A DNA stretch of 64,000 nt from Lagopus muta (Eukaryota; Chordata; Aves; Galliformes; Phasianidae). The translations under genes were made by a program, and so were the position numbers. Below, piece by piece: positions 1 to 28,635 of this stretch. The stretch's first letter is position 1; each line of letters starts with the position of its first letter. The stretch spans positions 5,693,598-5,757,597 of the forward strand of contig NC_064471.1 in NCBI RefSeq assembly GCF_023343835.1. The letters run 5' to 3'. Below the pieces are notes generated by a model. The model made no database searches. It was not told where the DNA came from and worked only from the letters and a program-made list of their open reading frames with translations.

Positions 1-1015
1 AGCGAACCAACCAGGAAACAATACTTTCATTCAGGCGCCGTGTGAACTCCTTTCTTGAACCTTGGATTTCAGTCATCTTTAGAGGCCGGCGAGTAGTAAT
101 AGAGACTTCCTCTTCATCACTCTCTTCTGCATGTCTCTTAGTTTTCGCTTTTGCCTTTCGCGATGGTGGTGGTTCTGAGGAGGGCCCCTCGCCTGGATCT
201 TCCTCCTCCTCCTCCTCTTCTTCTCTTTTTCGTTCAAGACGCGAAGACACTCGTTTCCATTTCTTGCCCTCCACAGGAGCAACTGGTATTGTTACTGGTG
301 TCTCCCGTGATTGATTAGATTTGACTTGGGGATTTTCCCCTTTGGCTTGAACCTCAGCTCGGAAACTCTCTCTCTCCAGAATGGTATTATATAGGGCACG
401 GTAAGCACAAGCCAAACCCCAAATAAGTTGTACCTCCTTAGATTTATGTAAGCCGCATAGTCCCTGACTCAAATACTGGCTTAGTTTCTCAGGATCCCAC
501 AGGTGTTCAAGAGTAAAATCCCATGACACTGCGGGTCCCCATGCTTCTAAAACCTTTCCTAAACCTCTCCATATTCCCTGCCAATCATCATTCTCTAGTT
601 TCAGAAGAGACTCCTTTCCCTTATTATGAATGCTTAGGAATACATTCAGGAGAATTGATGACACGAACAACAACATGAGTATTAATTCAAGATTCGAAAA
701 ACGTTTCACAAACCGAGAAGAAAACCCGGAGACTGGTCTGAACATCGTGTTGTTTGTAAAATTAGCTATTCCATTTGGGATGTAGTTGTTTGAGAAATTA
801 GCCATTCCTTCTGGGATGTAGATGTCAAAGTTCAAATCATACCACATTGCAAATAGGTAAAACATAGGTGTCTCCATCAGTGCCCTTAGATAGTTATATA
901 CGGATGCAATTCCAAAACACACAAGTGTGAGATGGATTATTGGCCAGTAGGTTGTGACTAACACCATTGCTTTAAATCCTTTACCCAGCACCCCCACGAT
1001 AACGAGTGGGTTCAT
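1..1015 (-). CDS. gag, partial (inverted copy)
   Basis: The reading frame opens with ATG at 1015-1013 on the minus strand and stays open to the window edge, about 338 codons. It is identical to the first part of the gag gene at 11799, so everything said there about two membrane segments, a sequon-bearing loop and an acidic/basic linker applies. The plus-strand open frame at 42-314 is an antisense shadow. The 3' end lies outside the window, so it cannot be said whether this copy is intact. Confidence 0.85.
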   Translation of the reverse strand, partial: MNPLVIVGVLGKGFKAMVLVTTYWPIIHLTLVCFGIASVYNYLRALMETPMFYLFAMWYDLNFDIYIPEGMANFSNNYIPNGIANFTNNTMFRPVSGFSSRFVKRFSNLELILMLLFVSSILLNVFLSIHNKGKESLLKLENDDWQGIWRGLGKVLEAWGPAVSWDFTLEHLWDPEKLSQYLSQGLCGLHKSKEVQLIWGLACAYRALYNTILERESFRAEVQAKGENPQVKSNQSRETPVTIPVAPVEGKKWKRVSSRLERKREEEEEEEEDPGEGPSSEPPPSRKAKAKTKRHAEESDEEEVSITTRRPLKMTEIQGSRKEFTRRLNESIVSWLVR

Positions 1016-1269
1016 CACTGGTGCTTGCTAAAAAGGGGTTAATGAATTGAAGCTAACAAGAGGAGGGAAAAAAAAAAGAAAAAAAAAACGCACTACCCAG
1101 ACTAAGTAGTGCTCAAAGTTTACAAATATCCCAGAACACTGGCAGTACGCCTAATCTTTCAAGGTCAGGTTTTCCAGCACAGAAACCTGAACTACTGATA
1201 ATGCTCCCTAACGAAGCTCTCTAAGAGCAGAGAGAAAAAGAGATTCGTTCAAAAAGCTAAAAAGCAGTC

Positions 1270-1287
1270 GCCCCACGTTGGGCGCCA
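1270..1287 (-). other. Primer binding site (tRNA-Lys), inverted copy
   Basis: The minus strand reads TGGCGCCCAACGTGGGGC, the same site as at 11527-11544. Confidence 0.85.
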
Positions 1288-1294
1288 AAAAATC

Positions 1295-1782
1295 TGTCAC
1301 GGATTTGACCAGATCAATCTATGTCCGTGACAGGGGCGACAGGCCTCTGCCCTCCCCCCCCACCCCAGTCCCACAAAAATGGGAAGGAAGGAAGGGAGGA
1401 AAAGAACAGCGGCAACAATCTATGGAGGAAAACTTATTTTACTATAATATCGGAATACAAGATAACACAATAGATACAATTTAATTGAAATTGAGATTAA
1501 TAAATCAGACGAGATGAGAGAGAGAGAGTTCCCGGGACCGATTCAAACCTGAAAAGCTTGGAACGGCTAGGAAAGCACCCTCCAGCACCCACTGCCAGGC
1601 AGCAAGAGAGCGCCCCCCCCACCCGGAAGGGCCAGATCCCGTGACTTCTGTAATGTACAGGGATAGGTAGCTGGGATTGGGCAGTGACACTTTAATGCCC
1701 CGTACACTACATGATGTTTTGATGTGGAATACTGAAACCCAAAAACAAAAAAAACAAAAACAAAAAACATAGAACCATGACA
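1295..1782 (-). repeat. 5' LTR of the inverted provirus copy
   Basis: This is 488 bp, with TGTCA/TGACA ends on the minus strand. It matches the LTR at 11032-11519 and not the longer 3' LTR at 17016-17510, which confirms that it corresponds to the 5' LTR of the complete copy. Confidence 0.93.
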
Positions 1783-4137
1783 AGTGTCCATCATTGCCTT
1801 CTTTCCTTTATCTGTGGAATGACGTTGATGATGCAAGTTGCTATAATGCTTGAATACATACCAAGCAGGTGACCTTGCAGGTATTTCAACTGTATGCAAG
1901 TACATTTTAGTAGCATCCTTTGTTCAAGTACAGACAGAAGTGAGGTAAATGTAAGAAATGGGTGGTATTGGCAGCATTTTGTTGACTTGTTGAATGGACC
2001 AAAAGTGGCAAATTGTTTTATATCGTACTTAATATAATACATCACGTAAGAAGGCTGTTTTGCCTACATGTCCATTATTTATTTGGATTTCTTTCTGTTG
2101 TGTAGATCTGCATATAAACAACTCTTTATCACTTCATACACTCTTTCAATGTAATGTACAGTCTGGTAATACTAAATCTCTTTTTTTTTTTTTTTTAAGT
2201 TGACTTGTGGCTTCTTCTACGCAGACAAAAGAGTTGTACTAGGCAGAACTGATAGTTGTTTCTTGCTTGCATCTAGAGTTTTGTTTTACTGTGTAATTTA
2301 CTTCTTTCTCTTCTCTCTAATGGATAGCATAGCAATGATTTGTGTGGCATAATATATTACTATTTGCAAGAATATGGAATGCTAAGATTCCTTTTCTGCC
2401 CTCTTTATTTTCTGGCAGCCATAAGGTGTAAGCCCTTCTTACTCCCTTTACATTGGCAACTTTAGCTCTTCTATCAATATGCATGGTTTGGCTTCAATGA
2501 AAATTGTGCCTGTGTACATCTGTGGCTTAGTGTATACAGTGAAGGAGTTCCTATGTTTGATATTGATATCATAATCACTTTTTTGGCAGTACATGCAAAG
2601 ATTTGGAAAGCTTGATTTAGCTTGCATATTTCTTTTCCACGTTTTCAAGTGCTGCTGTATGGAAGGACTGCTTTAGAGGGTGAATTTGACCACTTTTTGC
2701 CATAAATGTTTTTATTTTTCAGAAGCTCTTTTTCATTTTTAATTGTAAAATAACTTGATATCAAAACATGACATTGCTTTGTTTCTTATTTAAGTTGAGG
2801 TGACGTTGGAACCCGTGCTTTAATACCACGTTATGTTTCATTTTTGGAGTTCCTTGTAGGAGTAACAGACTGCAAAGTGCGGCTTTTTCTGGATTGTGGC
2901 TTGGACCTTCAGATTATCTGAGTGTCTGTATGTCATACATGGTTCTCTAGGTTTGTAGTGACATTCTCCTTCACATGTGGCGATGTTCTCTAAGTTTTGA
3001 AACGAAAATCGAGAATCAAAATAGATGCATTCTAGAATACAGAGATTCTACTCTGATCTACCTTATGAAACAAAACATCATTGTAAAATGCTTTGTATTC
3101 TCATAACAGGAAAGAAATATTTGTATACTAAAGCTTAAATAATATTTTCTGTTAAATTGCAGTGTTATAAAAAGATCCTGATTAAGAATGCTGGAGTATC
3201 TTTGACCTCTCATTCCCTTCCTTCTAGGATAATTTCTCTTGTTTGCATGTGGGTAAAGCAAAATATGTTATATATATATTTTTTTTTTCAGTTGTGGTTT
3301 TAAGTGTGTGTGTTTTCTTAACTTATTTAGAGAAGCAGTAAAACCCTTCCAGCATTTCTCTAAAAGTAAATTTCTCTACTAAGAAATCTTTATGATCCCA
3401 AGAATGACTTTTATTGTATGTCTCACTGTGCCAACATTTTGTTAACAATCAGTTTTATTTAAAATAATGTTAAAAGCCCTGCCTTGTGGCAGTCATATAA
3501 TACAAGTATGCCTCTTGAATTTTTTTGTATATTTAACATGAATCAAAGACATAAAATAAGTTCTTAGGTAGTTGTATGTAAACAGATACAATCCTTACTC
3601 TACATGATTTGTCCATGTGTATATTAGGCAGTGGTAGGTAAAGTAAACAGATTCAGGTAAACTGGGAGGAGGAAGGACCCTTATCCATCTCGAGTCAAAA
3701 TTTGGATCAACTGAAGAGTAGTTTTCTCTGTAGAACTGGGAAGATTCATTGATAAAATGTACAGAAATTTGCTTGGAGCTCATCAGGGCAGGCAGTTAGA
3801 CTTTTCAAATTAGTCTGACGTCCTTGCTAAGTGGCTTTTGGAAGCTGCACGTCTTTTGGCTTACATGAAGTATGTTCTTTCAACAGATGGCAGCCTTTCT
3901 AGTAGTAAGAGAAGAAAGACTTGTAGAAGTCTTCTCATGGGTAGTTGTTATCTGCTGGTACTTTGGTGACTGAAATGCTGACATCATGGAGAAAAATCAC
4001 GGAGAATAAAAACAAACAAACAAACAAAAACCAAAATAGAACTCGTGGGATGAGATGAAGCTATTTACTAATGCAGAAAAAAGAAGTATAATAGTAATGA
4101 CTACATATATATCTGAATGTATGTAACAAGTGATACA

Positions 4138-4290
4138 CAAGCAACTGCTCATCACTCACTGACCGATGCCCTGCTAGCCCCCAGTAAGCGGAAGAGAGCC
4201 ATTTCCTTCAAAACTCTCCATTTGTGGGATATGATACAGTATGGAATATCCTTTTGGCCAGTGTAAGTCCACTGTCCTGACTTCTGGTTT
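4138..4290 (-). repeat. Degraded avian ERV LTR remnant
   Basis: The plus strand contains ATGGAATATCC with flanking sequence resembling the central part of a common avian ERV LTR read in reverse. The piece is short and diverged, and its ends are not definable. A better preserved relative sits at 36400-36775. The family call is from memory of avian LTRs, so confidence is moderate. Confidence 0.4.
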
Positions 4291-7082
4291 TTCTAAAACA
4301 AGCAGTTTTTGAGGAACTGTGCAACACGTGTACCCTTATTGCAACCAGTTCAAGTGAGCCTACCAAAGAGCCTACCAAAGAGATGCTCTACACAGGCATC
4401 CACAAGGATGCAAGATCAAAAGAAAAGTATTTTCACTGACCTTCTTAGAGAAAGCCTTGTTTTAAATTTAGATTGCCAAAGTACATACAGATACAACTGT
4501 TCAATAGGTTTACCAAGGCAAGAATTTCACAAGTACTGTTATAATTCCATTTTGGATAAACAGCTCAAAAAACTAAACGTAAGTAACGCTTTGAGTAGTG
4601 TGAAGCTGAAGCAGCAGATTTTCAATCTGCCTTTTTATAAGCTCCTCTGGTAGCATTATTTATTATTAATAAAATATCCATAATCTTTCATTGAAAGATC
4701 CTGTTTTCTGCCACCTGGAAGTCCCAACTAATCTTAACAATTGGAGCCTGAAATTTTCCAACATCAGCAGCAAGCTCTTAAGCCATTGGGTGGTGGGAGA
4801 GGAAGTGAGTTCTCAGCCATTTCCCTGGAGAGAGAAATACAGGATACTGCAGATTTTCAAACTCCTACAGGAATTCTGCCATTGTACTTCACGGAACTGA
4901 TATTTTGCAGCTCTGGAATAAAAAAGGGTAAGTCAGTGGGAAGGTAATCCTGGGAGGAAGACCATTCCATTGCTATTCTTGTAAATCTCCCGAAACATAA
5001 GTTGAATTTAAAAGCAAGACCTATCTGCCTGTTGTTCCTTCTGAATGCTAGGGCTATGATGTCAGAGCTGCTAAGCACGGGATCTTAGAAAAGGCAGCTT
5101 CTCTTCCTCCCTCAGACAACACTGTGATAGGTCCACCACAGAGGGAGCAACCAGTTTGTGCAAGTGTGGATAGGAAGTAGAGAACCAATACATGCAGTTT
5201 GCTGAGAAGCCCTGGATCAACAAACACAGCACTGTTTCTCAAGATGCCAGGCTGTTCACAACCATCTTTAGCTGCAGCTGTGCATTCTTCATCCTATCTT
5301 TGTACTGGCCCAATTGTTACAGGTTGAATCAGCTTCTCATTTGTCTGAAAAACAACAGCAGGTAAAATAGCAGTTTTGGTATCAGCTCATTCCGTGGCTG
5401 TACAACCAATCAGAAGAGCAAGAAAGGAAACTAGAACATATGACCAGTCAGCATCAGGCAAAGTACTGCAGTCTGAAATGCGTCAAGCCACACCAGCTTA
5501 GAACAAGCAAGAAACCTGCAATTAAGAATAAAAGCTAAGTTGGAACAACTACCTACCAAAGAGCCTTAAGGGTATGGCTTCACAGATGCTAATCCTTGGA
5601 GGAGAGAGGAAAGAGTTCTACATTAATTTCTCATACACAAGTCTTCCTGCTTCTAGTGCATTTCTCCCAGCACTGGTGCTGACATCCATATGCCGATTTA
5701 CCTTACCAGCACAGCATAGGAAAGCAACACCAAAGAAAAAGCTGTAATGCTTTCTGCAGCTGTGTTTAACTGGCTTGCCAAGCTGTCAGCAACACAAAGA
5801 GATAAAGATGCATGGGGAGCAGCAACTCACTCTGGCAATTTACCTGTTCATGCAACCATGACCTAGACAGCCTGGTTCTTCCAGCAAACTCTTTAGGAAT
5901 CAACTCCTTCAGCTTTGGGTTTTATTTCTAAAGGCTAAGCGATGCTGGAAACTGCAATACCAATACTGTAAGAAATGCGCTCAGTTTACAGATGAGCACT
6001 GAAACCTCAGCCACACAGTTCCCGTATGCTGCTCAGGAAGTCACTATAGCATACAGGTAGGTCACAGCACTGGCTCTTTCTCCTGGCTGCCAAGGAAGCT
6101 CTAGATCTGCTTCCCAGACATGCTATGCACTCACTACTCTAAGTGGATGTCACTCCAAAGCAATAAACCAAATGCTGAATTTGAAGGAAGAGGCATTCCT
6201 GCTTGGGCACCCAAAGATTCATACAGAATTTTGATACCAATGGAGCCATAACTAACTTCTTTTAAAAAAAAAGTAGTAATAATACTGTTACCTTAAGGTC
6301 AGCTATAAAGATAAATTCTCAGTAATGAATTGAATGAATATATCTATGAAGATAAATGTAATAGCTATCCATGAGTAACTCAGATGTTGTAAGGATGTGA
6401 TTCATGATGCAAAACAAAATTCAGCATTCAAGACAGCATTTGAATAGTGAACACTAAATAAAGACATGTGGCCTTGGACAAGAACTAAAGAAAATAAACA
6501 GCTGCTTATTCACACAGCACATTCTGACTATGCCCACTTTAGCAGGCCAGTAGAAAATTCTTGAGCAGCAAAACAACAGTTGTGCTAAAAACAGTCTCGT
6601 TAATCTATAATTTTGCTTTATTTCAACTTAGAGCTAGCAACCAGCAGTTCCTGCAGCAAAGCAGTTTACATAGGGATTACAAAAAAATATAGAAACAACT
6701 GACGAAACCTGGAAAACCTCTCAATACCACAAAAAATGAGTTGTTAGTTATCCTCTGCCAGGATCCTCTTGTTCAGAGGGAACAAGAGTTTCATCCTCAG
6801 ATATGAGATTTACTCCCATTTAGAATCAAGTTGCAAAACGCGTCTGTTATTCTCTGTAAAGAAAACAAGCGAACAAAAACCTTACAATTGTGAAACATTG
6901 CAATACAAATTCTTGACAAAGCACATTGCATGAAGCATCACAGCTCTGAGATAAACTAATAAGTTCACAGGTTATCTGACAACTTTTACACAGGGAATCA
7001 CTTGGATGATCTTCATGCAAGTAACTGCTTTTCCCTAGACAATTCCCAACAGAACCTGACTCAATTTCTCAAAATTCTTTTA

Positions 7083-7102
7083 CACACACACACACACACA
7101 CG
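7083..7102. repeat. (CA)n microsatellite
   Basis: About ten uninterrupted CA units lie in the spacer between the inverted-repeat arms. Confidence 0.9.
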
Positions 7103-7712
7103 GATACCACTTAAGAACCACTTAAGTATATTTAATCCATCTCAAATAATCTGCAGGGTTTTTTTGTGTGCACTAAAGTCAGTCATAATGGCATAATAAC
7201 AGTTTTTAATATACCAATACTCAGATTGATATAGATAATACAGTCAGAGGACAAAAATGATACGTACTGTGCCCAGATCTATTTTTCCCCACACACTTGG
7301 TTTAATATGTCTCGTTACATGATATGCCAGTCAACTTCTCATCTCTTGGCAGAGTTGAGATTGGATGTAAAATAAAACATAAAATGCATGCAATGCAATT
7401 TTTTTTCTCCCCCTTAAGCCTGTGACTGTACAAACAACACTTGTTCAACTGGAAACCAATGGTCAGACCAGCAGTTGTATAAATACAGTGCTGAGTTTTA
7501 AAAAGTTTGCTGTTTTTGTTTATTTTAATGTATTTGTTAGGAAAAAAAAAACCACATATGCACAGAACTATTGCAAAATCAAAAAATCATCTTAACTGCT
7601 GTGATGCAGTGGAATAGAAAGTGCAGCAATAACAGCAGATCAGCAAGGTTCCAGGCTGCAGCAAGCTAGGATTTACTCGAATGCAAGATCCATGGGCACA
7701 GAAATAAAAGAA

Positions 7713-7885
7713 AGCAGCTGCTTACCTTCAGAAGGCCTCAGGTACACAGGGACAACCAGCAAGACACCATTACCTCCACTGCCAACCCTTGAATGAGGAT
7801 CCCGGCCCCCTCACTGAATGCAGCTGACGTCCCCTGGGGTGGCCCTGCCTTCCCATCAGGTGCTCAATCAATGCTTCCAGCCCTG
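7713..7885 (+). repeat. Dispersed repeat, copy A (family not identified)
   Basis: This aligns over most of its length with 25275-25490 (plus) and with the reverse complement of 63150-63365. Shared blocks are a start like CTGCTTACCTTC, then CCAGCAAGACA, then CTGCCAACCCTT-AATG, and an end like GTGCTCAATCA. On the opposite strand the start reads AAGGTAAGC, a good splice-donor match. No coding potential is seen. It could be part of an LTR or a non-autonomous element. Confidence 0.55.
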
Positions 7886-10800
7886 CTTAGCATTTCCATT
7901 ACAAGTGCTATGTATTCTTCTATAAACCAAGAAAGCTGGTCAGTATTTTTGTTTCAGAAATCCAGAATGGCGTTTATGTCTTCAGTGTTCCAGATCGAAT
8001 CTGTCTTTTATCAGTAACCATATAACATAGATTAAGACACACTCAAAACAGCTGAAGAAATCCATTAAGGACAATTATAAAGCCAAAGGTAAATTTGCAG
8101 TATGTCTTACCAAGAAGAAATTAAAGTAGTACAGCAAATCTTGATTATCTACAATGTTTGCAGGTTTCCTCAAGACAGGAAGTACAGCCCGATCATGTCA
8201 CCACAACAAAACAATCTAGATGAGTTTGCAAACACTTTATAATGCCTTAAAACATCACAGTGAGTCACATCTTGGACATCATCCCAAATGATCTATGCAA
8301 TATAAAGGAATCCCACTAGTGTTATAAAATAGCGGTATATTAGAAAGCTCCCTAAAAAATACTATATTATTCAGAAAGAATTAAAAAAAGAAAATACAAG
8401 TAACTAACAGAAGTTCTGCTCAGGCAGGAGTTTACTACTTGAGAAATTAGTAGAATGTAAACCTCCTATAAGACCTTTTCAACAAGATACAATTTCCCAC
8501 TTAGAAGAGGTCACTTAGTCATTTTTATGCCTTCCCCAGGTGAGTGCTTGCTTACAAATTCAAGACCACCAAAGCAGTTTGTATTCAGTCACTTCATTCT
8601 GCACTGAAAGCAAACAAATATTCTCTACTCAAACAAAACATATACCACTCTTGCTCATCTTCGACTTCACAGCAGTAATCTTTCTAGTTTCAGGGAACAG
8701 CATCTGTCAAAGACTTACCAAGTGTTTAATCAGATCATGGTTCTGGAACTGTCAGAAATCTAGAACTATCTCTGTTAGGAAGCAAAAATATTGATTAAAA
8801 AGTGTTATGAGTTTGAGATTTTTCTCCATGATGTCAGCATTTCAGTCACCAAAGTACCAGCAGATAACAACTACCCATGAGAAGACTTCTACAAGTCTTT
8901 CTTCTCTTACTACTAGAAAGGCTGCCATCTGTTGAAAGAACATACTTCATGTAAGCCAAAAGACGTGCAGCTTCCAAAAGCCACTTAGCAAGGACGTCAG
9001 ACTAATTTGAAAAGTCTAACTGCCTGCCCTGATGAGCTCCAAGCAAATTTCTGTACATTTTATCAATGAATCTTCCCAGTTCTACAGAGAAAACTACTCT
9101 TCAGTTGATCCAAATTTTGACTCGAGATGGATAAGGGTCCTTCCTCCTCCCAGTTTACCTGAATCTGTTTACTTTACCTACCACTGCCTAATATACACAT
9201 GGACAAATCATGTAGAGTAAGGATTGTATCTGTTTACATACAACTACCTAAGAACTTATTTTATGTCTTTGATTCATGTTAAATATACAAAAAAATTCAA
9301 GAGGCATACTTGTATTATATGACTGCCACAAGGCAGGGCTTTTAACATTATTTTAAATAAAACTGATTGTTAACAAAATGTTGGCACAGTGAGACATACA
9401 ATAAAAGTCATTCTTGGGATCATAAAGATTTCTTAGTAGAGAAATTTACTTTTAGAGAAATGCTGGAAGGGTTTTACTGCTTCTCTAAATAAGTTAAGAA
9501 AACACACACACTTAAAACCACAACTGAAAAAAAATATATATATATAACATATTTTGCTTTACCCACATGCAAACAAGAGAAATTATCCTAGAAGGAAGGG
9601 AATGAGAGGTCAAAGATACTCCAGCATTCTTAATCAGGATCTTTTTATAACACTGCAATTTAACAGAAAATATTATTTAAGCTTTAGTATACAAATATTT
9701 CTTTCCTGTTATGAGAATACAAAGCATTTTACAATGATGTTTTGTTTCATAAGGTAGATCAGAGTAGAATCTCTGTATTCTAGAATGCATCTATTTTGAT
9801 TCTCGATTTTCGTTTCAAAACTTAGAGAACATCGCCACATGTGAAGGAGAATGTCACTACAAACCTAGAGAACCATGTATGACATACAGACACTCAGATA
9901 ATCTGAAGGTCCAAGCCACAATCCAGAAAAAGCCGCACTTTGCAGTCTGTTACTCCTACAAGGAACTCCAAAAATGAAACATAACGTGGTATTAAAGCAC
10001 GGGTTCCAACGTCACCTCAACTTAAATAAGAAACAAAGCAATGTCATGTTTTGATATCAAGTTATTTTACAATTAAAAATGAAAAAGAGCTTCTGAAAAA
10101 TAAAAACATTTATGGCAAAAAGTGGTCAAATTCACCCTCTAAAGCAGTCCTTCCATACAGCAGCACTTGAAAACGTGGAAAAGAAATATGCAAGCTAAAT
10201 CAAGCTTTCCAAATCTTTGCATGTACTGCCAAAAAAGTGATTATGATATCAATATCAAACATAGGAACTCCTTCACTGTATACACTAAGCCACAGATGTA
10301 CACAGGCACAATTTTCATTGAAGCCAAACCATGCATATTGATAGAAGAGCTAAAGTTGCCAATGTAAAGGGAGTAAGAAGGGCTTACACCTTATGGCTGC
10401 CAGAAAATAAAGAGGGCAGAAAAGGAATCTTAGCATTCCATATTCTTGCAAATAGTAATATATTATGCCACACAAATCATTGCTATGCTATCCATTAGAG
10501 AGAAGAGAAAGAAGTAAATTACACAGTAAAACAAAACTCTAGATGCAAGCAAGAAACAACTATCAGTTCTGCCTAGTACAACTCTTTTGTCTGCGTAGAA
10601 GAAGCCACAAGTCAACTTAAAAAAAAAAAAAAAGAGATTTAGTATTACCAGACTGTACATTACATTGAAAGAGTGTATGAAGTGATAAAGAGTTGTTTAT
10701 ATGCAGATCTACACAACAGAAAGAAATCCAAATAAATAATAGACATGTAGGCAAAACAGCCTTCTTACGTGATGTATTATATTAAGTACGATATAAAACA

Positions 10801-11026
10801 ATTTGCCACTTTTGGTCCATTCAACAAGTCAACAAAATGCTGCCAATACCACCCATTTCTTACATTTACCTCACTTCTGTCTGTACTTGAACAAAGGATG
10901 CTACTAAAATGTACTTGCATACAGTTGAAATACCTGCAAGGTCACCTGCTTGGTATGTATTCAAGCATTATAGCAACTTGCATCATCAACGTCATTCCAC
11001 AGATAAAGGAAAGAAGGCAATGATGG

Positions 11027-11031
11027 ACACT
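11027..11031 (+). other. Target-site duplication ACACT (5' side)
   Basis: This matches 17511-17515 directly after the 3' LTR. Five bases is the size used by ERV-L integrases. The complementary flank is also present beside the inverted copy at 1783-1787. Confidence 0.85.
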
Positions 11032-11519
11032 TGTCATGGTTCTATGTTTTTTGTTTTTGTTTTTTTTGTTTTTGGGTTTCAGTATTCCACATCAAAACAT
11101 CATGTAGTGTACGGGGCATTAAAGTGTCACTGCCCAATCCCAGCTACCTATCCCTGTACATTACAGAAGTCACGGGATCTGGCCCTTCCGGGTGGGGGGG
11201 GCGCTCTCTTGCTGCCTGGCAGTGGGTGCTGGAGGGTGCTTTCCTAGCCGTTCCAAGCTTTTCAGGTTTGAATCGGTCCCGGGAACTCTCTCTCTCTCAT
11301 CTCGTCTGATTTATTAATCTCAATTTCAATTAAATTGTATCTATTGTGTTATCTTGTATTCCGATATTATAGTAAAATAAGTTTTCCTCCATAGATTGTT
11401 GCCGCTGTTCTTTTCCTCCCTTCCTTCCTTCCCATTTTTGTGGGACTGGGGTGGGGGGGGAGGGCAGAGGCCTGTCGCCCCTGTCACGGACATAGATTGA
11501 TCTGGTCAAATCCGTGACA
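11032..11519 (+). repeat. 5' LTR
   Basis: This is 488 bp, bounded by the inverted ends TGTCA and TGACA. It contains a T-rich 5' stretch, a CCAAT motif (GCCCAATCCC near 11132), a G-rich block, CT repeats near 11285-11298, an ATTAAA polyadenylation-type hexamer near 11331 and a run of 8 G near 11453. It should supply the promoter for gag-pol. No clear TATA box is visible. It differs from the 3' LTR at 11182 (G here, T there) and in three homopolymers. Confidence 0.95.
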
Positions 11520-11526
11520 GATTTTT

Positions 11527-11544
11527 TGGCGCCCAACGTGGGGC
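11527..11544 (+). other. Primer binding site for tRNA-Lys
   Basis: TGGCGCCCAACGTGGGGC matches the 18-nt site known to be complementary to the 3' end of tRNA-Lys1,2, the primer used by spumaviruses and several betaretroviruses. It starts 8 nt after the LTR end, leaving an unusual 7-nt gap (GATTTTT). Confidence 0.9.
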
Positions 11545-11798
11545 GACTGCTTTTTAGCTTTTTGAACGAATCTCTTTTTCTCTCTGCTCTTAGAGAGCTT
11601 CGTTAGGGAGCATTATCAGTAGTTCAGGTTTCTGTGCTGGAAAACCTGACCTTGAAAGATTAGGCGTACTGCCAGTGTTCTGGGATATTTGTAAACTTTG
11701 AGCACTACTTAGTCTGGGTAGTGCGTTTTTTTTTTCTTTTTTTTTTCCCTCCTCTTGTTAGCTTCAATTCATTAACCCCTTTTTAGCAAGCACCAGTG
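11545..11798 (+). promoter_or_regulatory. Retroviral leader with predicted hairpins
   Basis: This is the untranslated region between primer site and gag. Three inverted repeats are visible: TCTCT/AGAGA near 11581-11596, the 8-bp stem TCAGGTTT/AAACCTGA at 11624-11649, and the 7-bp stem GCACTAC/GTAGTGC at 11702-11724, followed by a T-rich tract. Their position suggests packaging or dimerisation elements. That role is inferred from location only. Confidence 0.5.
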
Positions 11799-13715
11799 AT
11801 GAACCCACTCGTTATCGTGGGGGTGCTGGGTAAAGGATTTAAAGCAATGGTGTTAGTCACAACCTACTGGCCAATAATCCATCTCACACTTGTGTGTTTT
11901 GGAATTGCATCCGTATATAACTATCTAAGGGCACTGATGGAGACACCTATGTTTTACCTATTTGCAATGTGGTATGATTTGAACTTTGACATCTACATCC
12001 CAGAAGGAATGGCTAATTTCTCAAACAACTACATCCCAAATGGAATAGCTAATTTTACAAACAACACGATGTTCAGACCAGTCTCCGGGTTTTCTTCTCG
12101 GTTTGTGAAACGTTTTTCGAATCTTGAATTAATACTCATGTTGTTGTTCGTGTCATCAATTCTCCTGAATGTATTCCTAAGCATTCATAATAAGGGAAAG
12201 GAGTCTCTTCTGAAACTAGAGAATGATGATTGGCAGGGAATATGGAGAGGTTTAGGAAAGGTTTTAGAAGCATGGGGACCCGCAGTGTCATGGGATTTTA
12301 CTCTTGAACACCTGTGGGATCCTGAGAAACTAAGCCAGTATTTGAGTCAGGGACTATGCGGCTTACATAAATCTAAGGAGGTACAACTTATTTGGGGTTT
12401 GGCTTGTGCTTACCGTGCCCTATATAATACCATTCTGGAGAGAGAGAGTTTCCGAGCTGAGGTTCAAGCCAAAGGGGAAAATCCCCAAGTCAAATCTAAT
12501 CAATCACGGGAGACACCAGTAACAATACCAGTTGCTCCTGTGGAGGGCAAGAAATGGAAACGAGTGTCTTCGCGTCTTGAACGAAAAAGAGAAGAAGAGG
12601 AGGAGGAGGAGGAAGATCCAGGCGAGGGGCCCTCCTCAGAACCACCACCATCGCGAAAGGCAAAAGCGAAAACTAAGAGACATGCAGAAGAGAGTGATGA
12701 AGAGGAAGTCTCTATTACTACTCGCCGGCCTCTAAAGATGACTGAAATCCAAGGTTCAAGAAAGGAGTTCACACGGCGCCTGAATGAAAGTATTGTTTCC
12801 TGGTTGGTTCGCTGTTGGGACAGTGGGGCCCATAGCTTGTCTCTGGATGGTAATGAAGCTCGCCAACTAGGTGCCATTGCCAGAGATCCAGCTATTGATA
12901 GAGGAATTAGTCGATGTTCGGATGAGGCTGCCTCCCTCTGGGAGCGAGTGTTAACAGCTGTGAAGGAAAAGTATCCCTTCAAAAATAGCTTGAAGATTTC
13001 AATGAAAAAATGGGATACAGTTGAAAAGGATATCCAGTATTTGAGGGAAATAGGCGTGGTGGAAATGTTGTATGACCCTGACTTTGTTCCTAACCACCCA
13101 CAACAAAACCGCGACCCTGAAAGAGTGAGGACAACGCCTGAGATATGGCAGAAAATCGTGACAACAGCGCCGGACAAATATGCCACTACACTAACATCAG
13201 CGTGTGACAGATACCAGGAACAACAGAGAACGCCCTTAGTTTATGAATTAATTGTTACGCTCCAAAACTACGAACAATTGCTGTCCCCAATTCATTCTGC
13301 CGTTGCTGCAATATCAAGAATGACGGAGCAAGTGTCTCAACTGATTAACCGTGACAAACCTGTAGCAGTATCAGAGACGCTTGATGAAGATCAGGATAAT
13401 CAAACAAGTCTAGCGAAGGATGTGAAGGAGATGAAGGAGATGATGAGACTTCTGCGAGCCCACCTAACTAAAGACGATGAACCTTCCTTCTTACGTGCAC
13501 GATCAAAAATCTCAGCTGTTAGAGGCAGACGCTCTCCGGCTCAAGTAAGGAATAATACACCGCGAATTACCTTATGGTATTACCTACGTGACCATGGAGA
13601 AGACATGGGGAAGTGGCACGGTCAACCTACTCCTGTACTACGAGCCCGGGTGAAAGAATTACAAGGCAGATCTACCACCAGTGCAGTTGCTCCAGTTACC
13701 ACAGGTAATGAATAG
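11799..13715 (+). CDS. gag polyprotein (638 aa), intact
   Basis: This is the structural polyprotein of the provirus. The start is the ATG at 11799; an upstream in-frame GTG at 11796 is not needed. Residues about 17-40 and 109-128 are strongly hydrophobic and look like membrane segments. The loop between them carries a 12-residue tandem repeat (YIPEGMANFSNN and YIPNGIANFTNN) with N-glycosylation sequons at N73, N85 and N88. A linker at about 255-300 has eight consecutive Glu and then a basic stretch. The following region, about 315-480, resembles the ERV-L capsid (a RLNESIVSWLVRCWD-type segment, LWERVLTAVKEKYPF). The C-terminus is basic (RGRR) but has no CCHC zinc knuckle. It ends with UAG at 13713. 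The first ~340 codons are duplicated in the left arm. The membrane-type N-terminus is unexpected for Gag. Confidence 0.88.
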   Translation: MNPLVIVGVLGKGFKAMVLVTTYWPIIHLTLVCFGIASVYNYLRALMETPMFYLFAMWYDLNFDIYIPEGMANFSNNYIPNGIANFTNNTMFRPVSGFSSRFVKRFSNLELILMLLFVSSILLNVFLSIHNKGKESLLKLENDDWQGIWRGLGKVLEAWGPAVSWDFTLEHLWDPEKLSQYLSQGLCGLHKSKEVQLIWGLACAYRALYNTILERESFRAEVQAKGENPQVKSNQSRETPVTIPVAPVEGKKWKRVSSRLERKREEEEEEEEDPGEGPSSEPPPSRKAKAKTKRHAEESDEEEVSITTRRPLKMTEIQGSRKEFTRRLNESIVSWLVRCWDSGAHSLSLDGNEARQLGAIARDPAIDRGISRCSDEAASLWERVLTAVKEKYPFKNSLKISMKKWDTVEKDIQYLREIGVVEMLYDPDFVPNHPQQNRDPERVRTTPEIWQKIVTTAPDKYATTLTSACDRYQEQQRTPLVYELIVTLQNYEQLLSPIHSAVAAISRMTEQVSQLINRDKPVAVSETLDEDQDNQTSLAKDVKEMKEMMRLLRAHLTKDDEPSFLRARSKISAVRGRRSPAQVRNNTPRITLWYYLRDHGEDMGKWHGQPTPVLRARVKELQGRSTTSAVAPVTTGNE

Positions 13716-13760
13716 AGGGGCCCTGCCCTCAGTCAGGGGGGGGAAAGGGATAATAGAGTA
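13713..13760 (+). promoter_or_regulatory. Candidate gag-pol stop-codon readthrough site
   Basis: gag ends in UAG, and the same frame is open from the very next codon through pol. Directly downstream, GCCCT near 13725-13729 can pair with AGGG at 13735-13738, followed by a long G run. This gives a GC-rich stem as found after the readthrough stop of gammaretroviruses. pol has no in-frame ATG near its start. Readthrough is therefore the simplest expression route; splicing as in spumaviruses is the alternative. Confidence 0.55.
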
Positions 13761-16700
13761 TATTGGACTGTGTGGATTCGATGGCCTGGCACATCAGAAC
13801 CACTGAAATATAAGGCCCTGGTGGACACTGGTGCACAGTGCACTCTGATGCCCTCGAGTCATGAAGGGACAGAATCAATCCATATTTCTGGAGTGACCGG
13901 GGGCTCTCAAGAATTGACTGTGTTGGAGGCCGAGATAAGCCTCACTGGTAAGAACTGGCAAAAACATCCTATTGTGACAGGCCCAGGGGCTCCATGTATA
14001 CTAGGTATTGATTATCTCAGAAGGGGGCATTTCAAGGATCCTAAGGGGTATCGATGGGCCTTTGGAATAGCTGCTGTGGACGCAGACAACATTAAGCAGC
14101 TGTCTGTTTTGCCTGGCCTGTCAGAAGATCCATCTGTTGTGGGGCTGCTGCGAGTAAAAGAGCAACACGTACCGATTGCTACAAAAATGGTGCACAGGCG
14201 TCAGTACCGCACCAACAGGGATTCTTTGCTCCCCATTCATAAGTTAATTCGTCAACTAGAGAGCCAGGGAGTGATCAGCAAAACTCACTCGCCTTTTAAC
14301 AGCCCCATATGGCCAGTGCGTAAAGCCAGTGGAGAATGGAGGCTGACGGTGGACTACCGTGGCCTGAATGAAGTCACACCCCCACTGAGTGCTGCTGTGC
14401 CGGACATGTTAGAACTCCAGTATGAACTGGAGTCAAAAGCGGCCAAATGGTATGCCACCATTGACATTGCTAATGCCTTCTTTTCCATCCCTTTGGCCAA
14501 AGAATGTAAGCCACAGTTTGCTTTCACATGGAGGGGCATTCAGTATACCTGGAACCGTTTGCCCCAGGGGTGGAAACATAGCCCGACCATTTGCCATGGG
14601 TTGATTCAAACTGTATTGGAACAGGGCAGTGCTCCTGAGCACCTGCAGTACATTGATGACATCATTGTGTGGGGCGATACAGCAGAAGAAGTCTTCACAA
14701 AAGGAGAGAGAATGATCCAAATTCTTCTGAGTGCTGGTTTTGCTATTAAGCGAAGCAAAGTGAAAGGACCTGCCCAGGAGATTCAATTCCTAGGTATAAA
14801 GTGGCAAGATGGCCGTCGTCACATCCCGACAGACGTGATTGACAAAATCACTGCTATGTCTCCACCCACTAGCAAAAGAGAGACACAATCTTTTCTGGGT
14901 GCAGTGGGCTTTTGGAGAATGCACATTCCAAACTACAGCCTTATTGTAAGCCCCCTTTATTATGTGACGCGAATGAGAAATGAGTTTACATGGGGCCCTG
15001 AGCAGCAGCAGGCTTTTGAACAGACTAAACAGGAGATAGCCCGTGCCGTGGCCCTAGGGCCAGTACGGACTGGACAGGGTATAAAGAACATCCTCTACAC
15101 CGCTGCTGGAGAGAACGGTCCCACTTGGAGTTTGTGGCAAAGAGCCTCAGGAGAGACCCGAGGCCGACCCCTGGGATTCTGGAGTCGGGCATACAGAGGG
15201 TCTGAAGAGCACTACACTCCAACTGAGAAGGAGATCTTAGCCGCTTATGAAGGGGTTCGGGCTGCTTCTGAAGTAGTCGGTACTGAAACACAGCTCCTTC
15301 TGGCACCTCGACTGCCAGTGCTGAACTGGATGTTTAAAGGAAAGGTTCCCTCCACCCATCATGCTACTGATGCCACCTGGAGCAAGTGGATTGCACTGAT
15401 TACACAACGAGCACGGATGGGGAACCTCAGCCGTCCAGGAATCCTAGAGATCATCATGGACTGGCCTGAAGGTAAAAAGTTTGGAACACCACCGGGAGAA
15501 GAAGTATCACGTGCTAAAGAGGCCCCACCATACAATGAACTACCGGAGAATGAAAAGAAATATGCCCTGTTCACAGATGGATCGTGTCGTATTGTGGGAA
15601 AGCATCGCAGATGGAAATCTGCTGTGTGGAGCCCCACACGACAAGTTGCAGAGGCCACTGAAGGGAAAGGAGAATCAAGCCAATTTGCAGAGGTAAAGGC
15701 TGTCCAACTGGCCTTAGATGTCGCTGAACGGGAGAGGTGGCCAATGCTCTATCTTTACACTGACTCATGGATGGTAGCAAATGCCTTATGGGGGTGGTTA
15801 CAGCAGTGGGAGCAAAATAACTGGCAAAGAAGGGGTAAACCTATTTGGGCTGCTGAACTGTGGAAAGACATTGCTGCCCGAATAAAGAATATGATTGTAA
15901 AGGTGCACCATGTAGATGCTCATGTGCCCAAGAGTCGGGCTACTGAAGAACAGCAAAATAACCATCAGGTAGATCGAGCTGCCAGAATTGAGGTGGCTCA
16001 AATAGACCTGGACTGGCAGAACAAGGGTGAATTATTTCTGGCTCGGTGGGCCCATGAGACCTCAGGACATCAAGGGAGAGATGCAACATACAAACGGGCT
16101 AGAGACCGAGGGGTGGACTTAACTGTGGATGCCATTGCACAGGTTATTCATAACTGTGAAACATGTGCCATCATCAAACAAGCCAAGAGGATGAAACCCC
16201 TCTGGGAGGAAGGGCGATGGCAAAAGTACAAATATGGGGAGGCCTGGCAGGTTGATTATATCACCTTGCCACGATCTCGCAATGGTAAGCATTATGTGCT
16301 TACTATGGTGGAGGCAACCACTGGGTGGCTTGAAACATATGCAGTACCCCATGCTACCGCCCGAAACACCATACTGGGTCTCGAGAAACAAGTCCTGTGG
16401 CGACACGGCACCCCAGAAAGGATTGAGTCAGATAATGGGACTCATTTCAAAAATTCTCTTGTAAATACTTGGGCCAAAGATCATGGCATCGAGTGGATTT
16501 ACCATATTCCCTATCATGCTCCAGCCTCTGGTAAAATTGAACGATACAATGGATTGTTAAAAACGATGCTAAAAGCACTGGGTGGCAGAACATTTAAGCA
16601 CTGGGAGAAGCATTTGGCAGAAGCCACCTGGTTGGTCAATACCAGAGGATCTATCAATCGTGATGGTCCTAACCAATCCAGTTCCCTACATACCGTAGAG

Positions 16701-16901
16701 GGAGATAAAGTCCCTGTTGTACATGTAAAGAACATGTTAGGAAAGGCAGTTTGGGTTCTTCCAGCGTCTGGAAAGGGCAAACCTCTCCGTGGTACAGTTT
16801 TTGCCCAGGGACCAGGATCCACTTGGTGGGTAATGCAGAAGAATGGGGATGTCCAATGTGTACCACAAGGAAACTTGATGCCGGGGGAGTGCAGTTACTA
16901 A
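13716..16901 (+). CDS. pol polyprotein (protease, reverse transcriptase, RNase H, integrase), intact
   Basis: The frame is open from just after the gag UAG to TAA at 16899. Numbering residues from the GTG at 13770: protease active site DTGA at 19-22; reverse transcriptase with LPQG near 263 and catalytic YIDD at 294-297; RNase H beginning at TDGS (D603); integrase with an HHCC zinc site (H762 in a WAHETSGH motif; C796 and C799) and catalytic D829, D888 and E924, the last two spaced as DX35E. A short C-terminal region of about 65 residues after the integrase core carries no recognised domain, and the dUTPase known downstream of integrase in mammalian ERV-L is absent. No frameshift or stop interrupts any enzymatic domain, so the protein looks functional. 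Open frames on the other strand here are shadows. Confidence 0.93.
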   Translation, partial: RGPALSQGGERDNRVYWTVWIRWPGTSEPLKYKALVDTGAQCTLMPSSHEGTESIHISGVTGGSQELTVLEAEISLTGKNWQKHPIVTGPGAPCILGIDYLRRGHFKDPKGYRWAFGIAAVDADNIKQLSVLPGLSEDPSVVGLLRVKEQHVPIATKMVHRRQYRTNRDSLLPIHKLIRQLESQGVISKTHSPFNSPIWPVRKASGEWRLTVDYRGLNEVTPPLSAAVPDMLELQYELESKAAKWYATIDIANAFFSIPLAKECKPQFAFTWRGIQYTWNRLPQGWKHSPTICHGLIQTVLEQGSAPEHLQYIDDIIVWGDTAEEVFTKGERMIQILLSAGFAIKRSKVKGPAQEIQFLGIKWQDGRRHIPTDVIDKITAMSPPTSKRETQSFLGAVGFWRMHIPNYSLIVSPLYYVTRMRNEFTWGPEQQQAFEQTKQEIARAVALGPVRTGQGIKNILYTAAGENGPTWSLWQRASGETRGRPLGFWSRAYRGSEEHYTPTEKEILAAYEGVRAASEVVGTETQLLLAPRLPVLNWMFKGKVPSTHHATDATWSKWIALITQRARMGNLSRPGILEIIMDWPEGKKFGTPPGEEVSRAKEAPPYNELPENEKKYALFTDGSCRIVGKHRRWKSAVWSPTRQVAEATEGKGESSQFAEVKAVQLALDVAERERWPMLYLYTDSWMVANALWGWLQQWEQNNWQRRGKPIWAAELWKDIAARIKNMIVKVHHVDAHVPKSRATEEQQNNHQVDRAARIEVAQIDLDWQNKGELFLARWAHETSGHQGRDATYKRARDRGVDLTVDAIAQVIHNCETCAIIKQAKRMKPLWEEGRWQKYKYGEAWQVDYITLPRSRNGKHYVLTMVEATTGWLETYAVPHATARNTILGLEKQVLWRHGTPERIESDNGTHFKNSLVNTWAKDHGIEWIYHIPYHAPASGKIERYNGLLKTMLKALGGRTFKHWEKHLAEATWLVNTRGSINRDGPNQSSSLHTVEGDKVPVVHVKNMLGKAVWVLPASGKGKPLRGTVFAQGPGSTWWVMQKNGDVQCVPQGNLMPGECSY

Positions 16902-17015
16902 TTCTATGTATATGTATATAGCCATGTGTGCATTTTAATCATTTTTTGTTTGTTTGTATATATGTATATATATCTATATTAAGCATGATGTAATGATGTA
17001 GAATAAGGGGTGGAA
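16902..17015 (+). other. 3' spacer and polypurine tract of the provirus
   Basis: This is an AT-rich spacer ending in GAATAAGGGGTGGAA (17001-17015), purine-rich apart from two T, directly against the TG of the 3' LTR. It should prime plus-strand DNA synthesis. There is no room for env. Confidence 0.8.
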
Positions 17016-17510
17016 TGTCATGGTTCTATGTTTTTTGTTTTTGTTTTTTTTTTTGTTTTTGGGTTTCAGTATTCCACATCAAAACATCATGTAGTGTACG
17101 GGGCATTAAAGTGTCACTGCCCAATCCCAGCTACCTATCCCTGTACATTACAGAAGTCACGGGATCTGTCCCTTCCGGGTGGGGGGGGCGCTCTCTTGCT
17201 GCCTGGCAGTGGGTGCTGGAGGGTGCTTTCCTAGCCGTTCCAAGCTTTTCAGGTTTGAATCGGTCCCGGGAACTCTCTCTCTCTCATCTCGTCTGATTTA
17301 TTAATCTCAATTTCAATTAAATTGTATCTATTGTGTTATCTTGTATTCCGATATTATAGTAAAATAAGTTTTCCTCCATAGATTGTTGCCGCTGTTCTTT
17401 TCCTCCCTTCCTTCCTTCCCATTTTGTGGGACTGGGGTGGGGGGGGGGGGGAGGGCAGAGGCCTGTCGCCCCTGTCACGGACATAGATTGATCTGGTCAA
17501 ATCCGTGACA
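17016..17510 (+). repeat. 3' LTR
   Basis: This is 495 bp and is the partner of 11032-11519. The 7-bp length difference is fully explained by three homopolymers (T8/T11, T5/T4, G8/G13). It follows the polypurine tract directly and is followed by the target duplication ACACT. Confidence 0.95.
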
Positions 17511-21104: not shown

Positions 21105-21745
21105 TGTACCTTCTCTGATGCTGCCTGAAGGCCACAGGGAGCTTGGGGCTGCCTAATTGATTCCTCCTGGACCTGACACAGCAGCTTAGAAGATGCTATT
21201 ACCAGTCCTGCTCTCTTCCTCAGGGCTTTCCTAGAGTCCACTGAGAGCTTGGGGCTGCCTGCTGGACTATTCCTATTGTGCCAACACAGCAACTCAGAGG
21301 ATGCCGGTCCCAGTCGCGCCTTCCTCTTTAGCACTTGCATCAAGGATCTCAGGGCCATCTACTGGACTCCTCTTGTCCCAGCACAGCAGTTTTGAGGACA
21401 CCAGATCCAGTCCTGCTTTCTTCTTCAAGACTGCCTACAGGCTGCAGGGACTCAGGGCTAGACTCCACATGTTGTCTTTACACAGCAACTCAGAGGACCC
21501 CATCCCAGTCCCAGCCTCTTCTTGAGGGCTCACCTAGAGGCTGCAGGGAGCTCAGGGCCATCCACTGGATGCCTCCCATTGTCGTGGTACAGAAGCATAA
21601 CAACACCAGTCTCAGTCCTGCCCTCATCCTTGGGACTTGCATGGAGGCCACAGAGAGCTGGGGGCCATCCACTGGACTCCTGTTTTCTCTGTGCAGAAGC
21701 TTAGAGGACACCAGTCTCAGTCCTTCTCTTTTCCTCAGAGCTTGG
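21105..21745. repeat. Minisatellite, about 6 diverged units of ~100-107 bp
   Basis: A motif like GAG-CTCAGGGCCATCCACTGGACTCC recurs near 21139, 21246, 21343, 21444, 21547 and 21654. Each copy is followed by a CAGCACAGCAGCTTAGAGGA-like block and CCAGTCTCAGTCCTGC-like block. The long open frame at 21335-21889 follows from the repeat structure and is probably not a gene. Confidence 0.7.
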
Positions 21746-22459
21746 GAAAGAAGAGGTGAGAGGTCTCAAGGAAGGATGAGGACGGGGGACAGAGGAAAAA
21801 AAAGGACTCTAGAGAGCAGAAGCTCTTCGGCGACTCTTCAACACCAAGATAGAAATAGAGAGCTCCTGCTGCACCACCAATGGATATAGAGATGTTTCTG
21901 GGCAAGCATGATGTGCTTGCCCAGGCCTGATAGCGATAGATCTACTTTCATCTGTTCACCCTGTGGAGGTAGGTACACCTCCATGGGCTCAACATTGCCC
22001 TCCAGTGGGTCTACATGCATTGGCTTGAGCTTGCTGCTGCTCTCTAGAAGCTGGAGCTTCTTCGGTGGAGAAGAATCCATCCTCCTCCACAAAAATTCCT
22101 AGAATGGGGGGGAAGGATCTAGGTAAAAAGCTCCTGGTCTCAAGCATGTGCTTCCCAGACAAAAGTCAGTCAGCAACTGGTGTTCTGTTGTCAGCACCTC
22201 TGTATTTATAGTGGTTGGCAGGGATGTGACTTGTGATATCGTAAGGAGACGGTGATGAGACCCAACAAGTGTTCCATGACAGCCAAAACAGGGCTGAGTT
22301 GGGTAGGAGAGGCCATGGCCTGAGAGTTCAAGAGTTAACGCTCCAGTTCCAGAGGGCTATAAGGACTGTGAAGGGTCTTGAGGGCAAGACACTGGAGGAA
22401 TGTCTGAGAGCTCCAAGTTTGTTGCTCCCAGAGCAAAGTAGGCTGTGAGGAGCCCTCAA
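21746..22459. other. Unassigned segment with inverted repeats
   Basis: A purine-rich block (21746-21830) is followed by sequence containing a perfect 9-bp stem with a 5-nt loop (GGGCAAGCA/TGCTTGCCC, 21900-21922) and a 6-bp stem GGAGGT/ACCTCC near 21964. 22110-22459 may be the 5' continuation of the adjacent CR1. No coding region is supported. Confidence 0.4.
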
Positions 22460-22714
22460 GGCAGCTGCAGCTCCTCACAGGGAGCAGAAAGCAGTGCTGA
22501 GCTCTGCTCTCTGGTAGCAGCTACAGGACCCTAGGGAACAGAGTTGTATCAGGGGAGGGTCATGGAAAGGTTCTGCACTAAAGGGCAGTGGGCATAGCCC
22601 CAAGCTGCTGCAGCTGAACAACCATTTGCATTGGAGTGGTCCCTTGTGGAGTCAGAGGTTGGACTTGATCATCCTTGTGAGTTCCTCCCACCTCGGGATA
22701 TTCTATGATTCTAC
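22460..22714 (+). mobile_element. CR1 LINE 3' fragment
   Basis: The segment shows the CR1 3' pattern (GGCAGTGGGCATAGCCCCAAGCTGCTGCAG, then a GGTTGGACTTGATCATCCTTGTG-like block) and ends in GGGATATTCTATGATTCTA, the characteristic CR1 tail. It is 5'-truncated. Confidence 0.8.
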
Positions 22715-23989: not shown

Positions 23990-24219
23990 GAGAGAAGGAC
24001 CTGGGGGTCCTGATGGATGAAAAACATAACATGAGCCAGTAGGGTGCTCTCACAGCTTGGAAAGCAAATGGTATCCTGGGCTCTATCAGAAGAGGGGTGG
24101 CCAGCAGGGACAGGAGGTGATTGTTCCCCTCTACTCTGCTCTTGTGAGGCGCCATCTGGAGTACTGTGTCCAGGCCTGGAGCCCCCAGTACAAGAAAGAC
24201 AGGGAGCTGTTGGAGAGTC
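23990..24219 (+). mobile_element. CR1 LINE internal 3' fragment
   Basis: This is CR1 sequence running from GACCTGGGGGTCCTGATGGATG to GGGAGCTGTTGGAGAGTC. Translated, it gives the C-terminal end of the CR1 reverse transcriptase ORF ([19 protein letters not shown] type) in frames broken by stops. It is truncated at both ends. Confidence 0.8.
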
Positions 24220-28134: not shown

Positions 28135-28205
28135 TTTTGCAAGTCCTTTGGGGGGTTGGACTTGATGATTCCTGGAGGTCCCCTGCCAACTCCTACAATT
28201 CTGCG
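28135..28205 (+). mobile_element. CR1 LINE 3' terminal fragment
   Basis: This is a short CR1 end: GGTTGGACTTGATGATTCC, GGAGGTCCCCTGCCAACTCC, then ATTCTGCGATTC. Confidence 0.7.
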
Positions 28206-28620: not shown

Positions 28621-28635
28621 TCACGGCGGCGGCGG

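Follow-up and report, generated by a model that had tools for sequence, protein, structure and literature searches.

HINTW is an old gene of the avian W chromosome with a relative on the Z. It was named the sole ampliconic gene of avian W chromosomes in a 2015 paper, and its multiple W copies undergo concerted evolution, as described in the cited part of that literature (PMC4468903). On the human Y chromosome, palindromes such as P6 possess arms that are over 99.9% identical, a likeness attributed in the cited text to gene conversion (PMC3723533), and the portion of the duck study cited here describes 38 W palindromes of 15.2-345.5 kb that are rich in lineage-specific repeats (PMC7787181). Additions to the W of songbirds by DNA-based transposition have been described, and for a crow, a NARF retrocopy of autosomal origin is mentioned (excerpts of PMC7692361). 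The Kindr genes of maize Ab10 encode a multi-copy minus-end kinesin-14 with shown drive (excerpts of PMC8437031 and PMC10618873). In the sections cited, a review of the subject had no example of a co-amplified family from a ZW species, and proposed that any such family might behave like Kindr (PMC10618873).

Here, we describe a 64-kb stretch of DNA (the window) from contig C57 (6.80 Mb) of the rock ptarmigan assembly (165 contigs, 1.027 Gb), a contig that looks like the W chromosome of this bird. With arms of at least 97 kb, more than 99% identity and a short spacer, the inverted repeat in this stretch has the build of a sex-chromosome palindrome. Like the human Y palindromes, it is a large, near-identical repeat (~99.9%) on what appears to be a non-recombining sex chromosome, but that chromosome is apparently female-limited and the repeat holds an autosome-derived kinesin gene, KIF18A-W, and a provirus inside its arms. 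An apparent location on an avian W is shared with the duck palindromes; whereas those are reported, in the cited part of the study, to be without robustly expressed genes (PMC7787181), the ptarmigan arms hold a complete open gene, known from sequence. KIF18A-W is multi-copy, as is HINTW, but appears to be younger and to have come from an autosome with its introns. A DNA-based transposition to the W would liken it to the songbird additions, but these came from the Z via DNA or from an autosome via retrotransposition, and the cited excerpts report no amplification of them (PMC7692361).

The giant, near-perfect inverted repeat of the original prediction is present in the assembly: positions 1-3998 align with the reversed 8817-12813 over 3998 columns at 99.925% identity (E 0). 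A single homopolymer difference had been given as the sole mismatch; there are three differences, comprising two substitutions (C/T, 2073 vs 10741; T/A, 3280 vs 9535) and one indel in a T run (2181 vs 10634). The homology leaves the window, as had been proposed, and in the parent assembly reaches from at least C57:5600001, which is the end of the compared sequence and makes the left-arm extent a lower bound, to at least C57:5803412. The proposed minimum arm length of 4 kb and the 4.8-kb spacer both hold, but each arm, at 97.6 kb or more, exceeds the length first given at least 24-fold (Table 1). Between the arms there are 93 substitutions over 86,670 aligned bp (0.107%), 69 of them transitions (74%) and 43 inside a single nested-ERV block of ~5.7 kb, and the alignment has 29 gap openings. 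The left arm also has a deletion of 7.5 kb and an insertion of 10 kb. The window and the other loci compared are free of Ns, and neither Rfam families nor tRNA genes were matched when the window was scanned for them.

Table 1. Features of the palindrome and of KIF18A-W, in window positions unless a contig coordinate is given.
Feature	Position	Strand	Remark
Left arm, innermost 4 kb	1-3998	-	continues left to at least C57:5600001
Left-arm provirus copy, 5' part	1-1782	-	LTR 1295-1782 identical to 11032-11519
Spacer	3999-8816	.	4818 bp, C57:5697596-5702413
Right arm, in-window part	8817-64000	+	continues to at least C57:5803412
LTR-to-LTR provirus, right arm	11032-17510	+	LTRs 11032-11519, 17016-17510
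Segment without counterpart in left arm	21507-29004	.	7.5 kb; includes METTL15-like exon
METTL15-like exon, open frame	27071-27379	-	match to human METTL15 query
KIF18A-W exon 1	29652-29979	+	ATG at 29652
KIF18A-W exon 2	30624-30781	+	
KIF18A-W exon 3	31537-31641	+	
KIF18A-W exon 4	32802-32912	+	
KIF18A-W exon 5	36984-37181	+	
KIF18A-W exon 6	40610-40786	+	
KIF18A-W exon 7	41552-41626	+	
KIF18A-W exon 8	41880-41986	+	
KIF18A-W exon 9	46722-46884	+	identical among 5 copies compared
KIF18A-W exon 10	48176-48340	+	identical among 5 copies compared
KIF18A-W exon 11	49448-49569	+	identical among 5 copies compared
KIF18A-W exon 12	50794-51032	+	
KIF18A-W exon 13	62242-62722	+	open, 7/7 C57 copies
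KIF18A-W exon 14	63018-63122	+	
KIF18A-W exons 15, 16	beyond window		exon 15 from C57:5759724, exon 16 C57:5760212-5760360

The arms were also expected to carry a provirus, and they do. Between its paired LTRs lie two long stop-to-stop frames (11787-13712 and 13716-16898) and Pfam matches to RT, RNase H and integrase domains; four of the seven pieces searched matched no Pfam family, and an envelope domain was found in none of the seven. ACACT flanks the element on both sides, which reads as a target-site duplication, and a TGGCGCC stretch past the 5' LTR is presumably the primer-binding site. The provirus occupies an identical site in the five near-identical C57 copies examined, including the window's own two.

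The palindrome had been placed within an intron, and a position in the intron of a working gene finds no support; it is itself gene-bearing and appears to be part of a sex-chromosome amplicon, with a lone METTL15-like exon nearby. Its residence within an intron of a live METTL15 was rejected on the finding of this single exon in the window and 20 tiles. A tblastn search with a human METTL15 protein as the query, which short or diverged exons may escape, found no further METTL15 exons in the window or in these tiles, and the exon itself had no Pfam match; it is evidently the lone remnant of a neighbour gene. The inner arm lies beyond this exon. Because 27615-29004, the tested part of the segment missing from the left arm, is present on contig C9, the left arm underwent a deletion in which the METTL15-like exon was lost.

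Each arm contains a complete KIF18A-W of 16 exons and 930 codons (2793 bp) whose sole stop is terminal, in a model with exon 16 set by comparison with the L. leucura protein, and all 16 exons are letter-identical between the arms. The kinesin motor domain (PF00225, E 1.4e-111) is nearest to that of KIF18A, a kinesin-8, with P-loop and switch motifs retained, and the closest PDB chain to an 894-codon version used as the query was human KIF18A (E 7e-200). DLAGSE is among the stretches of the translation that represent these motifs. An intron probe had eight matches in the genome, seven on C57 that lie within 0.74 Mb and one on C9, presumably chromosome 5; an exon 13 probe found the same seven plus one, every one of them open. 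Provided that C57 is the W, these are at least seven near-identical copies on a sex-limited chromosome, as in an ampliconic family. Neither probe matched C59, the presumed Z, and the ZW co-amplification of the conflict model in PMC10618873 is thus not seen with them.

The seven copies apparently comprise two palindromes and one extra copy, the second palindrome apparently having its centre close to C57:6062750 and a pair of KIF18A copies in each arm; the mirror centres of K3/K6 and K4/K5 coincide within 21 bp. Five of the seven, compared over 5.5 kb, differ by one substitution and five small indels, and at three small indels K1 and K2 share alleles not found in K3, K4 and K6, a pattern that fits gene conversion and also recent duplication. 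Noncoding divergence between the C57 gene and its C9 parent is 2.26%, with 125 indels, over 40.65 kb aligned. Introns are present and are 94-98% alike on C57 and C9, which rules out a processed retrocopy.

We are inclined to believe that selection has kept at least some copies functional, given an open frame of 930 codons and a dN/dS below 1, W-specific changes at conserved sites notwithstanding. Neither of the two copies, among the seven, that were read over the full coding sequence has a stop, a frameshift or a splice-site loss. Neutral expectation for the W branch, computed on a coding length of 2685 bp, is ~3.4 frameshifting indels (half of 6.7, the halving being our own step), with a chance of zero of ~0.035, and ~1.1 stop gains. 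In the comparison of KIF18A-W with C9, dN is 0.0115, dS 0.0238 and dN/dS 0.484 (Fisher p 0.047), a borderline, pairwise value in which the constraint is partly owed to the autosomal branch. KIF18A-W could instead be a dead passenger in a real palindrome, carried in a TE-rich segment that was amplified neutrally and with decay pending; this reading, which disputes only the retention of working copies, is a real possibility, though we lean against it. It is consistent with the young age of the gene, with the left copy's loss of 7.5 kb upstream, METTL15-like exon included, and with the duck W palindromes, reportedly without robustly expressed genes in the cited part of that study (PMC7787181). 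There are also 14 amino-acid changes on the W branch (13 without the weak M13V) vs 7 on the autosomal branch, and I293F, I330V, E517K and T834I fall at sites unvaried across up to 120 aligned homologues, changes that also fit decay. Codon 251 likewise carries a W-only variant. Against it stand the intact state of both fully read copies, an exon 13 that is open in all seven, coding sequence that is identical from arm to arm, and the dN/dS of 0.48. Mouse KIF18A acts on the meiotic spindle. If copies are retained, as we favour, their likeliest use would be to provide the female germ line with more KIF18A or with a modified form of it.

The origin of the structure is, with high probability, the copying of an autosomal segment to the W, where it gained a provirus and multiplied as palindromes whose copies were kept alike. 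A C9 segment with all of KIF18A, introns included, and a 5' METTL15 exon would have been copied to the W; the homology is observed, and its direction and date we infer. The provirus, judging by its placement, would then have inserted into the transferred segment, which would have multiplied as inverted copies into the two palindromes and one copy seen in the assembly, in an order that is our reconstruction. The likeness of the copies may reflect recent origin, arm-to-arm gene conversion, for which mammalian Y palindromes offer a parallel, or both. Of the three origins offered in the original prediction, recent duplication and arm-to-arm gene conversion both fit the similarity of the arms, whereas a fold-back is disfavoured by the arm differences, the seven gene copies and the absence of Ns. 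It is very unlikely that a fold-back or duplicated haplotype mimics inverted copies of a single locus: hifiasm and purge_dups could misjoin near-identical copies, and the palindrome is described here from the assembly, but a simple fold-back is improbable because the arms differ by 93 substitutions (74% transitions) and by two large indels, the deletion of 7.5 kb and the insertion of 10 kb. The stretches read without Ns, and the three indel alleles that set K1 and K2 apart, also argue against such an artefact.

The bLagMut1 assembly paper reports a female bird with Z and W assembled. The best CHD1-like_C matches fall on C59 (45.07 Mb) and C57, followed by C13 and C23, and those on C57 and C59 both run over stop codons; of 41 ERV-end matches scored, 29 are on C57, which makes up 0.7% of the genome. 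Germline-restricted chromosomes are, to our knowledge, confined to songbirds. That C57 is a different small chromosome rich in ERVs, or an element of the germline-restricted kind, as the CHD1-like matches on C13 and C23 and the two stop codons crossed by the C57 match might suggest, is highly improbable given that C57 and C59 are the top two CHD1-like matches, as expected of W and Z, that ERVs are enriched on C57 and that a W is reported as assembled.

Kindr, in the accounts cited, resembles KIF18A-W in being a cluster of several kinesin copies whose chromosome could gain from female meiosis, but is a kinesin-14 with demonstrated drive (PMC8437031, PMC10618873), whereas KIF18A is a kinesin-8 and would be a candidate at most. 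By this analogy the grouse W might have captured a kinesin-8 and amplified an altered version to bias its segregation to the egg, or to counter such bias, in a vertebrate parallel to Kindr; we consider this doubtful. Of the two sex chromosomes, the presumed W alone shows amplified KIF18A. Genomic evidence of ZW co-amplified genes is absent according to the cited part of the review (PMC10618873), and KIF18A-W bears on that subject. Since every generation takes the W through an asymmetric meiosis, a kinesin carried on it would be a concrete, testable candidate for sex-chromosome conflict in a ZW vertebrate. If our reading is true, the W would be able to acquire and amplify genes, as the Y chromosomes of mammals and flies do.

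The window, at C57:5693598-5757597, opens within a large palindrome on its contig, C57, as the original prediction had proposed. The two mirrored stretches are 99.925% identical over 3998 columns, a match too long to be due to chance. The predicted homopolymer length difference is present, in a T run, but it is not the sole mismatch, as two substitutions accompany it. The homology also continues past the left edge of the window, as anticipated, to where the fetched sequence ends, in a comparison of the window and the surrounding twenty 10-kb tiles (left unjoined). The two arms differ by 93 substitutions in 86,670 aligned bases (0.107%) and by 29 gap openings; this value leans low because alignments under 800 bp or 98.9% identity and one off-diagonal ERV alignment were excluded, so that of the left arm's 97.6 kb some 10.9 kb, mostly a 10-kb insertion, goes uncounted. 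Transitions account for 69 of the 93 substitutions, and 43 of the 93 fall in one nested-ERV block. A 7.5-kb segment of the right arm is missing from the left, which we read as a deletion since part of it occurs on C9, the autosomal contig carrying the parent KIF18A gene, and the 10-kb insertion is absent from the right arm. An assembly fold-back had been one of three origins offered for the arms; these substitutions, the 7.5-kb loss and the 10-kb extra sequence argue that they are not the product of folding back one read or contig. The window and the 37 fetched loci contain zero Ns.

Coordinates of features in the window and elsewhere on contig C57
Feature	Window	C57	Remark
Left arm, matched stretch	1-3998		arm traced to C57:5600001
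Spacer	3999-8816	5697596-5702413	
Right arm, matched stretch	8817-12813		arm traced as far as C57:5803412
LTR	1295-1782		minus strand
LTR	11032-11519		
LTR	17016-17510		
Diverged direct repeat	21129-21737		~100-bp offset, 66% alike; overlaps edge of putative left-arm deletion
Segment absent from left arm	21507-29004		27615-29004 occurs on C9
METTL15-like exon	27071-27379		
Inverted 220-bp repeat	29318-29537		just upstream of KIF18A exon 1
Inverted 220-bp repeat	37732-37950		KIF18A intron 5
KIF18A exons	29.6-63.1 kb		
Left-arm-only segment		5604587-5614565	10 kb
Nested-ERV block		5623396-5629255	~5.7 kb
Tandem ERV block		5780126-5792152	fetched loci L026-L027
Tandem ERV units		5780126-5783988, 5786138-5790000	100% identical, 3863 bp
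Apparent second provirus-spacer-provirus core		6034017-6046841	
Mirror centre, copies K3/K6		6062741.0	
Mirror centre, copies K4/K5		6062761.5	

The provirus predicted within the repeat is confirmed by three LTR copies, whose positions show it straddling the outer edge of the stretch matched in the right arm, its mirror image leaving the window. Its two LTRs are one substitution and three short indels apart. Five of eight fetched provirus-end loci, all near-identical C57 loci and two of them the window's own, share a flank over 1.2 kb, indicating that the provirus multiplied together with the segment; the other three family members lack that flank.

The palindrome carries KIF18A. Exons were located by tblastn with a human KIF18A query, and the final model comprises 16 exons (the last two just beyond the window), 2793 bp and 930 codons, with one terminal stop and GT-AG boundaries at every intron. 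Human KIF18A motor domains are the best solved relatives of its product (E 7e-200), which is 98% identical to Lagopus leucura KIF18A. All 16 exons are letter-identical in the left arm. The putative deletion there takes the METTL15-like exon and part of a GC-rich stretch upstream of KIF18A, leaving ~650 bp before the ATG, and promoter strength may differ between the two copies. The 220-bp repeats are 87% alike, and both have counterparts on C9.

A 2.5-kb, mostly intronic probe around exons 9 and 10 gave eight matches in the assembly (1,026,658,476 bases, 165 contigs), seven on C57 and one at C9:2546817 (96%). An exon 13 protein probe found the same eight, all open without a stop, at 100% identity for K1 and K2, the palindrome's copies, 99% for K3-K7 and 96% for the parent. 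Every candidate was scored in both searches (8 and 15); for large families, such counts are lower bounds. Neither probe, searched against the whole assembly, matched C59, the presumed Z. K3/K6 and K4/K5 have nearly the same mirror centre, which suggests that these four copies make up a second palindrome, each arm holding two; K7 stands apart. The first palindrome's core seems to recur on C57, with a spacing of 12,825 rather than 12,813 bp; no mirror image of this core about 6062750 appears among the provirus-end matches listed.

The assembly matches bLagMut1, which is described as that of a female, built from PacBio HiFi and Hi-C data, and as including both a Z and a W chromosome (PMC10320755). 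CHD1-like_C gave four matches, on C59 (45.07 Mb), C57 (6,802,803 bases), C13 and C23, those on C59 and C57 reading over stop codons. C57 holds 29 of 41 provirus-end matches (40 of 1862 candidates scored), in line with a W loaded with ERVs. We infer that C57 is the W and C59 the Z.

Introns are common to the W copy and C9 (~94-98% alike), which rules out a retrocopy and points to DNA transposition to the W. In noncoding sequence the two differ by 2.26%, and 125 indels separate them over 40.65 kb. At an avian rate near 2 substitutions per billion years per site, the split would date back on the order of 5 million years. In a 5.5-kb comparison of five of the seven W copies, the only differences are one substitution and five small indels, and three of these indels set K1 and K2 apart from K3, K4 and K6; copying or homogenisation, perhaps by gene conversion, is thus far more recent than the transposition.

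The W and C9 coding sequences differ by 14 synonymous and 25 nonsynonymous changes (dS 0.0238, dN 0.0115, ratio 0.484, Fisher p 0.047). At the noncoding rate ~6.7 frameshifting indels would be expected in 2685 bp on both branches, ~3.4 of them on the W branch, where none was observed (chance ~0.035). Using L. leucura plus seven further sequences as outgroups places 14 amino-acid changes on the W branch, with another two probably there, and seven on the autosomal branch, leaving two unplaced; the imbalance (16 versus 7) is not significant (p 0.09). At the seven derived positions of the autosomal gene (C9 loci L033-L037) the W copy is ancestral. Compared with the best 120 out of 7862 listed homologues (118 with species names, all birds), the W-derived changes I293F (119/119), I330V (120/120), E517K (120/120) and T834I (113/113) fall at unvaried positions, and at R251C 116 of 119 homologues have R and the other 3 have H. 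M13V is W-derived against the nearer outgroups, a weak assignment because V is the most frequent residue across the wider set (109/120). The overall pattern is consistent with a working gene on which selection has changed or relaxed, although KIF18A-W may instead be in early decay.

In the open-licence literature searched, KIF18A and "W chromosome" gave one paper, on tumour chromosome instability to judge by its abstract; no paper turned up on KIF18A in Galliformes or on a KIF gene transposed from an autosome to a bird W, and one, on a rattlesnake, for grouse W genes duplicated or amplified from autosomes. A W-palindrome paper on New World sparrows is cited in PMC7787181. The analysis establishes the structure, the copy number, the intact frame and the parentage; W linkage, gene conversion, function and the sequence of events are inferred. 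The boldest reading would be a selfish role like that of Kindr in maize, a tandem array of eight or nine kinesin genes (PMC8437031), against which stands that neither probe found a co-amplified copy on the presumed Z. Mouse studies describe disrupted spindle organisation and chromosome alignment in oocytes after Kif18a knock-down (PMC6234775) and germ cell loss in Kif18a mutants (PMC11642851, preprint), suggesting that a W bearing seven KIF18A copies could alter the female germ line.
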